A stretch of DNA of 64,000 bases from Thermococcus sp. 18S1 (GTDB lineage Archaea; Methanobacteriota_B; Thermococci; Thermococcales; Thermococcaceae). The notes beneath the pieces were generated by a model. The model was not told the DNA's origin, did not search any database, and was given only the letters and a program-made list of their open reading frames with translations. Positions 1 through 37,694 of this stretch are shown here, piece by piece (position 1 is the stretch's first letter; the number at the start of each line of letters is the position of its first letter). The translations under genes were made by a program, and so were the position numbers. The DNA is taken from assembly GCF_012027645.1 (NCBI RefSeq), contig NZ_SNUU01000001.1, positions 744,001 through 808,000 on the forward strand. The letters are read 5' to 3'.

Positions 1-507
1 AAGGGTTCCATCACCCAGGTGCCCATCCTGACGATGCCGGACGACGACATAACCCACCCGATTCCGGACCTGACCGGATACATCACCGAGGGCCAGATAG
101 TCCTCAGCAGGGACCTTCACAGGAAGGGTATCTACCCGCCCATTGACGTCCTTCCGTCGCTCAGCCGTCTGATGAAGGACGGTATCGGTAAGGGCATGAC
201 CCGTGACGACCACCCGCAGCTCAGCCAGCAGCTCTACGCGGCCTACGCAGAGGGACGCTCCCTGAGAGACCTCGTCGCCGTCGTTGGTGAAGAGGCTTTA
301 AGCGAGACCGACAGGAAGTACCTCAAGTTCGCCGAGCGCTTCGAGAAGGAGTTCGTCGCCCAGCGCTACGACGAGGACAGGAGCATCGAGGAGACCCTCG
401 ACCTCGGCTGGGAGCTCCTTGCCGAGCTTCCGGAGAGCGAGCTCAAGCGTGTCAGGAAGGAGTACATCCTCAAGTACCACCCCAAGTACAGGAAGAGGGA
501 GGGCTGA
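1..507 (+). CDS. atpB: A-type ATP synthase subunit B, 3' part
   Basis: This is the C-terminal portion of the regulatory (non-catalytic) B subunit of the archaeal A1Ao ATP synthase; the gene begins before the window and is open from base 1. The sequence around [17 protein letters not shown] and [15 protein letters not shown] is the strongly conserved nucleotide-binding-fold end and the start of the helical domain of this family. The final helical domain ends in [11 protein letters not shown]. The subunit alternates with subunit A in the A1 hexamer on the cytoplasmic face of the membrane. The next gene, 27 bases downstream, encodes subunit D, the usual order of the archaeal operon. Identification is very secure; only the 5' end is missing. 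Confidence 0.96.
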
Positions 508-33638: not shown

Positions 33639-33661
33639 ATTTTGACTCCTAAAATTCAGTG

Positions 33662-35287
33662 ATGGGCGTGGGTGGTTATCTGCTCAGGTTCTTCACAGTC
33701 CTGTTCCTTGTGTTTCTGGTAGTGGGTAATCTCACTGCCCCAACTGAATTGACTAGTGATGATGTTCATGTTGATGGTGTCATGGGGGCTTTTTACAAGG
33801 TTGGGAAGTTTTTTGTGGTGCCTTTTGAGAATTTGAAGTACAGGCTTGGTGGGGGAGATAATGCTGGAGAGTTTGAGTTTGATGATTCTAACCTTGAGCC
33901 TGTCCAGACTGTCCAGTCTGGAGTGCCCCCAGGGTATGTTGAGAAGTACTTTAAATTCCAGGGTGAGAAGTACAAGTTTTACAAGCCTTTGAACCCCAAG
34001 AAGTCCCAAGTGAGGGAGGAGTTTGAGTTCAGCAAGGGTTATGATGGGATGTTGGGTTGGAAGGATTTCACTGCTGGTGACCTTGTTGAGGACTTGTACA
34101 GTGAGCCTGTGAATGAGGTGTTTAAACTTTCCCTTGATGCCCTTTATGAGAAGTATGATAAGGAAGACAAGAAGATATTCATTAAGTATCTGAAAATTCA
34201 GGGGGAGTGTCCTAATGGGTGGTGTGAGAGGGTTAATCCAGTTAGTGTTTATGCTCCCTTGTTTCCAATTGTTAGTGTTGCTCAACCCACCCCTGAAGTA
34301 TTAAGGCATGCCCTTGTTGATAATGCAGAGTACTTCATGGAAATTGGTTGGGATACTGACCCAGCACTTCCCTCCAAAGTTATTAAGGCAGAGGCAAGTG
34401 TTGACTGTGATGGTATTGTGCTTTATGATTATGCCTTCCTGTACAGGTTGAATAAACTCATGGGGGTCAAAGCAGAGTATTACAAAGTTGGCTTTCATGG
34501 ATACCTGCCAAATGGGGAGATGAACCCAGTTGGTCATGCTGAACTGTTTGTTTACTACCCAGAGACTGGCAAGTGGGAGGTTTACAGTACAATGGCAGTG
34601 ACAGAGTATTTTTACAAATACACCAGCAGGGACATTGACCTAGAAGCATACAGGGAGTACTCATACACTAGGCAGATAGTTGCAAGGTATATTGAAAAAG
34701 GGTACCCAGTTAGCCTTACACTCTCAGTGATTGTTGTTAAAGATAATGGCAAGATTAAACCCCCAGAACTGTATGTACCAGTTGGCAAACTCCAATTCAA
34801 CAGCTTTGAGGAAGCATTGTACTGGTACTTGTACAGTAATATAATACACAATCATGCCAGTTTGTACACTTTCATCACTGGCAGGAGTGGAGGTTCAACC
34901 CCAGAAGAAAACCTGAAAAAGTTTGAGAATTACAGGGTCATGATATTCCTTCAGAAGCTCCCCACCCCAGAAGACCCCAAAGTGTACAAGGTAATGAACT
35001 GGTATGGAAAAGAAGCCACACTCAACAGGCTCAAAAAAGACTTGGTTAAAAAAGGCCAGTACAGGGAGATAAAGTTTGTTATTAACAAGGGAGAACCTCC
35101 AGAATTCCTCAAGAAGCCAAAACCCTGGCTCAATGAAGACAATGCTCCACCCTGGAGCAAAGAGGATATTATCAGATACAAAAAGTACAAGGAAAAAGCA
35201 AAAAATGAAGACAGTGGAGAAAGCATCATAGACCTCCTAATCAAAGGCTTCAAGAACCTCTTTAAGGGAACTAGATTAGGGGGCTGA
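33662..35287 (+). CDS. CpG-free gene: membrane-anchored transglutaminase-like protein
   Basis: 541 residues. An N-terminal membrane helix or signal (about 6-24) is followed by an external domain. The core VDCDGIVLYDYAFLYRLNK (Cys249), then GHAELFVYYPETGKWEVY (His292), follows the Cys-then-His layout of transglutaminase-like cysteine proteases; the third residue, normally Asp after the Trp, is Ser309 here, so activity is uncertain. A CPNGWC pair (Cys183, Cys188) may form a disulfide. The C terminus is Lys-rich with a short amphipathic end. Codon use differs sharply from neighbours: no CpG occurs in or between codons, T-ending codons dominate the first half and A-ending codons the second. The family is not one I can name; acquisition from elsewhere is inferred. 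Confidence 0.7.
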   Translation: MGVGGYLLRFFTVLFLVFLVVGNLTAPTELTSDDVHVDGVMGAFYKVGKFFVVPFENLKYRLGGGDNAGEFEFDDSNLEPVQTVQSGVPPGYVEKYFKFQGEKYKFYKPLNPKKSQVREEFEFSKGYDGMLGWKDFTAGDLVEDLYSEPVNEVFKLSLDALYEKYDKEDKKIFIKYLKIQGECPNGWCERVNPVSVYAPLFPIVSVAQPTPEVLRHALVDNAEYFMEIGWDTDPALPSKVIKAEASVDCDGIVLYDYAFLYRLNKLMGVKAEYYKVGFHGYLPNGEMNPVGHAELFVYYPETGKWEVYSTMAVTEYFYKYTSRDIDLEAYREYSYTRQIVARYIEKGYPVSLTLSVIVVKDNGKIKPPELYVPVGKLQFNSFEEALYWYLYSNIIHNHASLYTFITGRSGGSTPEENLKKFENYRVMIFLQKLPTPEDPKVYKVMNWYGKEATLNRLKKDLVKKGQYREIKFVINKGEPPEFLKKPKPWLNEDNAPPWSKEDIIRYKKYKEKAKNEDSGESIIDLLIKGFKNLFKGTRLGG

Positions 35288-35530: not shown

Positions 35531-35607
35531 CCGGACGATGACGAGAATGCACCTCCACTGAACCCGGCAGCTGAATGATGAGAAAAAGGGTCCGAGTCCC
35601 AGTCCGG
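35531..35607 (+). ncRNA. Possible box C/D-like small RNA (weak)
   Basis: A strong TATA-like TTTTTATAT at 35503-35511 would start a transcript near 35531. From there CCGGAC (35531-35536) could pair with GTCCGG (35602-35607). Inside are ATGACGA (35538-35544, one mismatch to box C), CTGA (35558-35561) and ATGATGA (35575-35581, a perfect box C'). No good terminal box D is seen (only CCGA at 35592), and the 3' side overlaps an operator of the next gene. It may be just leader sequence, and the same TATA could serve the minus strand. Confidence 0.22.
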
Positions 35608-35657
35608 TCGCTCCACCGACCGAAACCCTTTTCTATTTGGTCGTTCAAACGACCAAA
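35606..35657 (+). promoter_or_regulatory. Tandem palindromic operator and promoter of the AAA+ ATPase gene
   Basis: Two copies of GGTCG-N6-CGACC occur at 35606-35621 and 35639-35654, exactly 33 bases apart (about three helical turns). The second is extended to perfect ten-base arms, TTTGGTCGTT and AACGACCAAA, around CA (35636-35657). A weak TATA-like CTTTTCTATT lies between them at 35628-35637, and GGTGGGTGT then leads into the ATG at 35670. Confidence 0.65.
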
Positions 35658-35669
35658 GTGGGTGGGTGT

Positions 35670-36962
35670 ATGGTCGAGCTAACGGACTATCTTTTAAAGC
35701 TCTCCGCCGAACTGCCATCGAGGTTCGACTACGCGAGAAGACTTAGGAAACGCTTCCTTTTTGAGAGGCTTGCCGGTCTGGTTGATGACTACCTCGGCGG
35801 TGAAAGCCCCAAGACCGTCCTCCTTCCGGGCCTGAGGGGGACTGGAAAAACGACGCTTCTCGGTCAGCTTTACTTCCACGCGCTCTCCAAGACCGCCGAC
35901 GTGATCTACATATCCGCCGATGAAGCTCGCCTCCTCGGCTTCTCCCTTCACGAGGTTATAGAGAGGTATTTCGATGTCTTCAGGCCCAAGAGACCCGTTC
36001 TCCTCCTCGACGAGGTTCAGTACGACCCGGACTGGGATTTAACTCTGAAAGTCCTCCACGACAGGAGGAAGGCCCTCGTGATCGCCACGGGCTCTTCCGC
36101 TTTAAAGCTGAAGGAAAGCCCCGACCTCGCGAGGAGGGCGGTTCACGTTGAGGTAAAGCCGCTCAGCTTCATTGAATACCTCCACCTCACCGGGGAGGAC
36201 GTCGGGCCGGTGGGCCTCGATACGCTGTTCGAATTCGACGTTGATAGACTGGAGAGAGCGCTCTCAACGGGCTCCCGCTTTGCTAAAACCGCTGAGGACT
36301 ACCTGACGCTTGGCTCCCTGCCGCTGACCCTTGAGCTGGAGGAGAGAACCGCCTATGAATCCCTGTTTTCCCTCGTTGAAAGGATAGTCTATCGGGACCT
36401 TCCCGAGTTCAGGAACTTTGACTCATCAACGCTGGATTCCGCCCTGAGACTTCTGACCATAATCGCCAGCCCCAAGGGGGAGCGTTTCAGCTACGAGCGG
36501 CTCTCGAAGACGCTGGGGATATCAAAAAGCACCGTCATGGAACTCGTGAGGGCCTTCGTCGCCAGTGGACTTCTCATAGAGATATCCCCCGTTGGAGGTC
36601 TCTCAAAGAAGATCCGCAGAAGCTCGAAGCTCAAGTTTTCAGCGCCTTCGCTCCGGGCGTCGCTCCTTTCCAAGTTCGAGGTTGTTGAACTCGCCCCCCT
36701 GCTCGAGGACGCCGTGGCCCTCTACCTCTCGGGAGAGGGCATTCTGGAGTACGAACCTGGAAAGGGCGGTGCGGACTTCGTTCTTACGAGGAGGGGAAAA
36801 CGATACGTCGTTGAGGTTGGCCTTGGAAAGGCTAGCTACACCCAGGTTAGGAGGAGCATGGAGAGAACCGGGGCCGACTTCGGAATAGTCATAGGGAGAG
36901 AATTCGACGTCAGGGAAAACCTCTTGATGATTCCCTGGTGGGCATTCCTAAGCCTTGTGTAA
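35670..36962 (+). CDS. Archaeal AAA+ ATPase with C-terminal DUF4143/nuclease-like domain
   Basis: 430 residues. The N-terminal P-loop domain has Walker A GLRGTGKTT (about 54-62), Walker B VLLLDEVQ and the sensor strand ALVIATGSSAL. A winged-helix-like segment (SKTLGISKSTVMELVRAF) follows, then a C-terminal domain with ADFVLTRRGKRYVVEVGLGK, the layout of a PD-(D/E)xK fold in which the usual lysine is missing. Such ATPases occur in many copies in Thermococcales and their role is unclear; defence, mobile-element and regulatory functions have been suggested. The helix-turn-helix and the tandem palindromes upstream make self-regulation plausible. It ends 15 bases inside the convergent methyltransferase gene. 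Confidence 0.85.
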   Translation: MVELTDYLLKLSAELPSRFDYARRLRKRFLFERLAGLVDDYLGGESPKTVLLPGLRGTGKTTLLGQLYFHALSKTADVIYISADEARLLGFSLHEVIERYFDVFRPKRPVLLLDEVQYDPDWDLTLKVLHDRRKALVIATGSSALKLKESPDLARRAVHVEVKPLSFIEYLHLTGEDVGPVGLDTLFEFDVDRLERALSTGSRFAKTAEDYLTLGSLPLTLELEERTAYESLFSLVERIVYRDLPEFRNFDSSTLDSALRLLTIIASPKGERFSYERLSKTLGISKSTVMELVRAFVASGLLIEISPVGGLSKKIRRSSKLKFSAPSLRASLLSKFEVVELAPLLEDAVALYLSGEGILEYEPGKGGADFVLTRRGKRYVVEVGLGKASYTQVRRSMERTGADFGIVIGREFDVRENLLMIPWWAFLSLV

Positions 36963-37694
36963 TATCAAACTGTGCCTCCACCTCGTCCCGGCCTTGAACT
37001 TTACGTCCCTCACGGAGTAGCCCAGCGCCTTTCCTTTCTCTTCTATTGCCCCTATCAGCGGCTTCTTGTCAGGAAGGAATAGGGCTGCCTTGCCGCCGGG
37101 CTTCAAATAGTCCATCGCCTCCTCGATGAGCCTCACCGAGAAGGCCTCCCCGTGCTCGCCCCCTCCAACGCCTTCCCTCTCCGTTAGAACTCCCCTCGTC
37201 GGCCTCTCGTAGTAGGGCGGGGCGGAGAAGATCACGTCAAAGCGCTCGCCTTCAGGGATTACCTCCCTGATTATCCCACCGTCGCTCCTGATGAGCTCAA
37301 CTCCGGCGCCGTTCCTCTCGATGTTTCTCCTCGCGTACTCAAAGAACTCCCCGTCGAGCTCCGTCGCTGTAACGTCGCACTTGAAGAGCTTCTCAGCCAT
37401 GAGGGCCATCATCGCGGTATGGCCGGTTCCAATCTCAAGAACCCTCTCTCCCCCGCGCAGGAAGGTCTTGAGGAATAGGTAGCGCGAGACGGGAGTCGTC
37501 ACGAGCCCGCGCGGGTGGTACTCTATCTCCAGCCCGAAGAGGGCCTTCGCTATCGCCCTGTTGTAGAGTATCCTCGCTTCCCTGTTCGAGAAATCGAGCC
37601 TTCCGCGCTCGTCGAGGTAGTCCTTCAGCTCCGGAAACAGCTTCACGGCTTCCTTTACAGGCAGTCCGAGCTTTCCGTCCTTCCAGGCTGGCAT
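36948..37694 (-). CDS. RNA methyltransferase of the RlmF/METTL16-like or TrmN6-like group
   Basis: 248 residues. An N-terminal helical region rich in basic and aromatic residues (DGKLGLPVKEAVKLFPELKD) precedes a Rossmann fold with VLEIGTGHTAMMALMAEKLF and the acidic ATELDGEFFEYA. Motif IV reads FSAPPYYERP; in N6-adenine methyltransferases the residue before PP is Asn, Asp or Ser, so the alanine here is odd and specificity is open. The end, FKAGTRWRHSLIL, is typical of the group. No operon partner. Confidence 0.75.
   Translation of the reverse strand: MPAWKDGKLGLPVKEAVKLFPELKDYLDERGRLDFSNREARILYNRAIAKALFGLEIEYHPRGLVTTPVSRYLFLKTFLRGGERVLEIGTGHTAMMALMAEKLFKCDVTATELDGEFFEYARRNIERNGAGVELIRSDGGIIREVIPEGERFDVIFSAPPYYERPTRGVLTEREGVGGGEHGEAFSVRLIEEAMDYLKPGGKAALFLPDKKPLIGAIEEKGKALGYSVRDVKFKAGTRWRHSLILHKA

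Follow-up and report, generated by a model that had tools for sequence, protein, structure and literature searches.

We analysed an ATPase gene that is preceded by two palindromes and a promoter core, within a 64-kb stretch of Thermococcus sp. 18S1 DNA (the window). The features of the locus are listed in Table 1. The next gene after the ATPase encodes a methyltransferase (36948-37694) and lies on the opposite strand. The ATPase operon contained no second small gene of the kind that marks a toxin-antitoxin module, and the + strand had no ORF of at least 60 aa from the operators to the ATPase. A tRNA or attachment-site origin was also considered and set aside, as there is no tRNA within the 64-kb window.

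Table 1. Features of the ATPase locus, in window coordinates.
Feature	Position	Strand	Sequence	Remarks
C/D-box sRNA, Rfam sR43-like	35533..35597	+		40.4 bits (gathering 45); at some orthologous loci only
Putative operator copy 1	35606..35621		GGTCGCTCCACCGACC	immediately 5' of BRE/TATA-like element; group-A conservation
BRE/TATA-like promoter core	35621..35638	+	CGAAACCCTTTTCTATTT	aligns with TTATATAT of orthologues
TATA-like element	35629-35638		TTTTCTATTT	between the two palindromes
Putative operator copy 2, full	35636..35657		TTTGGTCGTTCAAACGACCAAA	10-bp arms; conserved in orthologous rows
Putative operator copy 2, core	35639..35654		GGTCGTTCAAACGACC	exact motif match
ATPase gene, P0001, 430 aa	35670..36962	+		AAA_14 + winged helix + DUF4143; PADLOC PDC-S01
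Third copy, degenerate	35672..35687		GGTCGAGCTAACGGAC	2 mismatches; inside first codons; doubtful
ATPase helix-turn-helix, residues 272-299	36483..36566	+		HTH_23 below cut-off; structure model; subfamily comparison
Predicted recognition helix, residues 286-299	36525-36566	+

The palindromes, the promoter and the ATPase

The sequence-only reading had described a pair of GGTCG-N6-CGACC palindromes, with identical half-sites and 33 bp apart, before the ATPase gene. Both were found as exact matches, and no further exact copy was present within the 64-kb window. Shuffled versions of the window contained a mean of 0.24 copies, and at least two copies occurred in 3 of 100 shuffles. The 10-base arms read earlier for the second palindrome (TTTGGTCGTT/AACGACCAAA) were also confirmed, as was its place between the TATA-like element and the ATG at 35670, where it overlaps the last three bases of that element. 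From the usual archaeal spacing, we take transcription to start near 35659. The rarity of the motif was dropped as evidence, since five copies were found genome-wide against about 3.9 expected per 1.99 Mb from base composition; the other three lie inside an MsrA/B-like ORF, inside an ArsA-like ORF, and at a place with no listed ORF over it. Because the bare motif occurs about as often as chance predicts, the signal is carried by pairing, position, and conservation. A degenerate third copy lies 33 bp beyond copy 2 and keeps the 33-bp phase across the start codon. It was rejected as an operator: its palindrome is weak and unsupported, and conserved codons may be its sole cause.

The region upstream differs between genomes. 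The second guide region of the sR43-like sRNA is unlike that of the orthologous loci L011, L013, L016, and L017, and we do not judge this sRNA to be part of the ATPase system. Between it and the RlmI-like methyltransferase gene lies a 542-aa ORF (33659-35287) with no Pfam or NCBIfam match, and in several other genomes the end of the methyltransferase adjoins the sRNA directly. An imperfect inverted repeat of 14 nt pairs the end of the sRNA with the TATA region (35581-35594 with 35621-35634). It is absent in L015 and is probably due to chance.

The ATPase had been labelled DUF234/DUF4143 from the letters alone. The DUF4143 part of this label was retained (31.8 bits, cut-off 28.1) and the DUF234 part was not, as Pfam listed AAA_14 (7.5e-26) and DUF4143 with no DUF234. 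The helix-turn-helix-like segment claimed earlier fell below threshold as a sequence profile, with weak matches between residues 252 and 316 and HTH_23 at 21.7 bits under a cut-off of 24.6, and was borne out by the structure model as a STAND-like winged-helix domain. In the AlphaFold2 model of P0001 (37 sequences, pLDDT 91.5, pTM 0.90), helices 275-282 and 286-299 are followed by two strands, forming a winged helix. The nearest folds were CED-4 (Z 16.0, 293 residues aligned), PAB2304 (2qen, Z 15.8), and SSO1545 (2fna, Z 15.3), and the alignments with these STAND ATPases, over 265-293 residues, covered the NTPase, helical, and winged-helix parts. P0001 has both this NTPase-helical-winged-helix arrangement and the Walker A and B motifs (GLRGTGKTT and LLLDEV) of STAND NTPases. 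No solved structure related to the ATPase by sequence was found at E <= 0.1. In eukaryotic STAND members, the winged helix serves as a conformational lock. Since it is known as a structural lock, the automatic assumption that it binds DNA is weakened.

P0001 matched the PADLOC model PDC-S01 at an E-value of 1.1e-34, and so did 9 of 9 other scanned members of groups A-H, all judged by E-value, with no curated cut-off printed. In the C-terminal part, D369, E382, and K387 are invariant or nearly so, and the E-VGLG-K spacing is unusual for PD-(D/E)XK. No relatives were found among phage. Membership in PDC-S01 suggests a defence role for the ATPase.

Conservation and divergence of the palindromes

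Homologues of the ATPase were present in 82 of 94 Thermococcales genomes. In the group test, all 18 Thermococcales orthologues kept the order palindrome, TATA, palindrome, ATG, and the arrangement was unchanged in orthologues of 58-100% identity. As the sequence-only reading had anticipated, the motif recurs upstream of orthologues: pairing reached 94.7% in copy 2 and 74.4% in copy 1, and there were pairs that had altered at both positions. In an alignment of group A anchored on the start codon (20 rows, 19 distinct), standard pairs filled 85.9% of the pair cells of both copies. Both-side changes involved six pairs and 22 cells, against a shuffled mean of 12.5, and 1 of 500 shuffles was as high; these counts are inflated by shared ancestry. 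When partners were shifted by 1-3 columns, only 0-5 cells were changed on both sides. The commonest such change was at the inner pair of both copies, where some lineages have A-T and others G-C. The putative operators were kept in differing upstream contexts, with or without the sR43-like sRNA, which indicates that they travel with the gene.

Stronger support came from a result that the sequence-only reading had not foreseen: the paralogous subfamilies carry different palindromes at the same promoter position, and the helix-turn-helix changes with the operator. The best conserved upstream palindrome of each subfamily (8-bp arms, spacer 0-8) was compared with column permutations, and a conserved palindrome was found near the promoter in 10 of 10 subfamilies, with mean pairing of 0.75-1.00. 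The values were 0.91 for A (TTTGGTCATTTAAATGACCAAA), 0.77 for B, 0.92 for C (TTAGTTAA...TTAACTAA), 0.88 for D1 (ATTCTGTTTGAACAGACT), 0.75 for D2, 0.81 for E, 0.91 for F1 (GTTCAGTATACTGAAC), 0.88 for F2, 0.79 for G, and 1.00 for H (n=2). The permutation p was 0.005 in nine subfamilies and 0.015 for H. Three genes served as control promoters (27 of 30, 17 of 20, and 18 of 20 loci used). The SAM methyltransferase (0.51, p=0.34, 27 sequences) and the M20 peptidase (0.46, p=0.37, 17 sequences) were negative, and the RlmI-like methyltransferase was nominally positive (0.62, p=0.02, 18 sequences). The permutation is blind to local AT-richness and the best palindromes of D2 and G include TATA-like or AT-rich sequence, so these two were treated as weak. 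Start codons were chosen by a script from ribosome-site score and homology. Excluded from the group tests were L027 and L028 (near-duplicate, start uncertain), L088, L089, and L098 (start or group unclear), L068 (tblastn matched the adjoining group-A gene), and L118 and L119 (broken genes).

Single promoters were also scored. At least 8 of 9 pairs were reached in A (16/18), B (6/16), C (3/3), D1 (5/5), D2 (1/11), E (9/10), F1 (8/8), F2 (3/3), G (0/3), and H (2/2), compared with 2 of 24 window controls, which were greedy ORF calls with gaps of at least 60 nt. In the window's own genome, where 10 of 16 PF01637 places and three DUF4143 genes were scored, 7 of 13 reached this level. Only one copy is clear in B, and the D2 and G palindromes are weak. 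The centre-to-centre spacing was 33 bp in A and G, 34 in C, D1, and H, 35 in F2, and 32 in E. A steady spacing of 32-35 bp in seven subfamilies, combined with changing sequence, is the expected trace of one protein family changing its specificity. B, C, D1, F2, and G resemble copy 2 of the window in having the palindrome between TATA and start. In E and F1, it lies upstream of the main TATA, so that a block of initiation would not be uniform across subfamilies. A and C ATPases occur close together in the same orientation at L020/L068 (G055:C58), G050:C41, and G084:C3, and the second ATPase of the pair in G055 has a C-type operator.

We then compared the proteins with their operators. D1 and D2 have different operators and proteins of 75% overall identity; the lowest 13-residue window in 460 residues was the HTH (297-309, 37%), and the wing was 95% identical. 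A and B reach 48% identity over their full length and 64% in residues 272-299, and GGTCATT/AATGACC-like sites are common to both; the highest identity along the entire protein (92%) was in window 268-280, beside the HTH segment. C and D2 have 87% of the wing in common and, in the recognition segment, 16%. The helices of B and D2 resemble each other (59%), and by eye a half-site-like GTTCATT is all that their operators share. Operator changes appear to track the recognition helix, as the D1/D2 and A/B contrasts fit and B/D2 fits only partly.

The full-length form TTGGTCN8GACCAA was found at 24 sites in 94 genomes, 14 of which precede a group-A ATPase or its nearest paralogue, group B. Searching by tblastn with P0001 and with two of its paralogues located an ATPase at 13 of the 23 sites with their own locus, and the single site without one precedes a group-B ATPase (L062), bringing the total to 14. 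Three further sites are at a group-A locus from which the ATPase is gone (G019, G024, and G080), and two (G044 and G062) are next to the gene that lies ahead of group-B ATPases, without an ATPase at either. ATPase loci, filled or emptied, hold 19 of the 24 sites; with the other five unrelated, the motif is not scattered over unrelated genes, in agreement with the earlier reading.

At the empty loci L113, L114, and L115, in G019, G024, and G080, both palindromes remain and the coding sequence is gone. The ends of the reading frame are retained at L114 and L115, so these group-A loci look like internal deletions. The empty group-B loci have a second, weaker copy about 33 bp away, by hand count on the sequence. 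Copies of the ATPase broken by in-frame stops were seen at G007:C1:336412-337262, G005:C1:1931182-1932180, and G008:C1:1017723-1018944, which suggests that members of this family are often lost. Plasmid relatives numbered six records, one of them a D2-type relative in Thermococcus barophilus (NC_015471.1:5247-6332).

More distant members were taken from Methanobrevibacter, Methanosphaera, Patescibacteria-type bacteria, Melainabacteria, Bacteroidota, and others, with 42 usable loci of at least 77. Perfect 8-bp arms occurred between -80 and +3 at 13 of the 42 loci, against 2.8 expected from dinucleotide shuffles. In the sister family, two PF01637-kind ATPases of the window's genome have tandem palindromes that extend as far as the start codon and are conserved in relatives. 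One palindrome is AATTTACATGGGGTGTAAATT (13 sequences, 0.93, p=0.005, with L286 excluded). The other is AGGTAATGGGGGCGTTACCT (10 sequences, 0.83, p=0.010), with GTATCGG or CTTACGG variants in relatives; one row of the 10, L316, was out of register because of a contig end, which merely dilutes the result. The recognition helix of this family is clade-specific, and the HTH falls within the low-identity windows without being the lowest of them. At L326, a tandem GTATCGGGGGCGATAC palindrome, with four copies in the stretch viewed, lies directly 5' of the start of a PF01637-type ATPase.

Proposed autoregulation and alternatives

We consider it quite probable, and the simplest account, that the winged helix of the ATPase binds this private pair of operators and represses its own gene. 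The cooperative self-repression put forward in the sequence-only reading is supported, with self-binding, cooperativity, and repression as its inferred parts. The protein would be a STAND-type ATPase in which an AAA+ core is followed by a winged helix and by a nuclease-like DUF4143 part at the C-terminus, and two winged helices would bind each palindrome symmetrically. One such pair may sit upstream of the BRE/TATA and the other between TATA and the transcription start; with the sites three helical turns apart on the same face, both are probably held by one oligomer. Repression is proposed because copy 2 sits between TATA and the expected start, where an occupied operator would block TBP, TFB, and RNA polymerase and keep the gene low by negative feedback. 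A trigger such as infection may lift the repression. Recognition helix and operator would have changed together in each subfamily, allowing many paralogues in one cell without cross-regulation. Judged from sequence comparison, these candidate antiviral ATPases most likely keep their own genes off until needed.

A different possibility is that the palindromes are operators of a separate transcription factor encoded elsewhere, with the ATPase merely as the target. This would suit the often structural role of STAND winged-helix domains and the perfect sites that persist in genomes and loci without the ATPase. However, such a factor would need to co-diverge with every ATPase subfamily; the operators differ between paralogues within one genome, 19 of 24 sites are at ATPase loci, and the HTH of the ATPase alters when the operator alters. 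We regard a separate factor as unlikely.

The ATPase may instead bind the operators and activate its own gene, or toggle between activation and repression. Archaeal activators usually bind upstream of the TATA box, which is where the E and F1 palindromes lie. However, copy 2 of the window and the palindromes of B, C, D1, F2, and G are in the position of a steric repressor, and activation seems rather less likely still. It is very improbable that the palindromes, instead of being operators, serve as targets for the nuclease-like domain or as sites where a selfish gene recombines. Patchy presence, empty loci, and the D2-type relative on the Thermococcus barophilus plasmid could be read in that way, but the sites flank the promoter and not the gene, their phase with TATA is constant, and the empty L114 and L115 keep the gene ends, as internal deletions would. 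RNA hairpins, either a terminator of the sR43-like sRNA that ends just upstream or a leader structure, are the least probable explanation, as the palindromes are present in L018-L026, where no sRNA was seen upstream, and copy 2 is at or before the expected transcription start.

Autorepression by the ATPase can be extended to a fuller scheme, which we hold only tentatively. The winged helix that locks the resting STAND protein would also sit on the operator, so that a viral cue would release the effector and derepress the gene together, and paralogues would stay independent by coupled swaps of helix and operator in a fixed geometry. If true, a very common family of one-protein immune ATPases, present in archaea and bacteria, would bring along the switch for its own gene. 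For every PDC-S01 member, the proposed operators supply a predicted binding site and a reporter promoter, and also a way to seek the inducing signal. The paralogous helix/operator pairs within one order form a natural series for DNA-specificity switching and possible orthogonal heat-stable repressors.

Comparison with known systems

PADLOC lists PDC-S01, which P0001 matches, as a candidate single-gene phage defence in which an ATPase is joined to a PD-(D/E)XK-type domain, and its antiviral activity has candidate status. In published work, PDC-S01 ranks fourth among the commonest defences of prokaryotes and is enriched in archaea, and validation is described as pending for most such defence candidates (PMC12988326). 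No description of operators or self-regulation in this family was found in the literature searched, which covered few subscription journals and preprints. P0001 has the NTPase, helical, and winged-helix parts in common with the STAND ATPases CED-4, plant NLRs, P. abyssi PAB2304 (2qen), and S. solfataricus SSO1545 (2fna), whereas its winged helix would, as proposed, also read DNA.

Self-repressing regulators of immune or toxin genes include the C proteins of R-M systems, antitoxins, and regulators of the BrxR/CapW type. In these, and reportedly with CapK/CapS, control at the promoter keeps a defence gene low, as is proposed for P0001. In all of these systems, the regulator is a separate protein, whereas P0001 would combine regulator and effector in one polypeptide. 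The mycobacterial AAA+ ATPase regulator IniR has been likened to SSO1545 and binds a promoter; in the part of the IniR account available, it activates another operon and a self-operator does not appear (PMC5760070). IniR and P0001 are both SSO1545-like ATPases, and the promoter binding that was shown for IniR is predicted for P0001.
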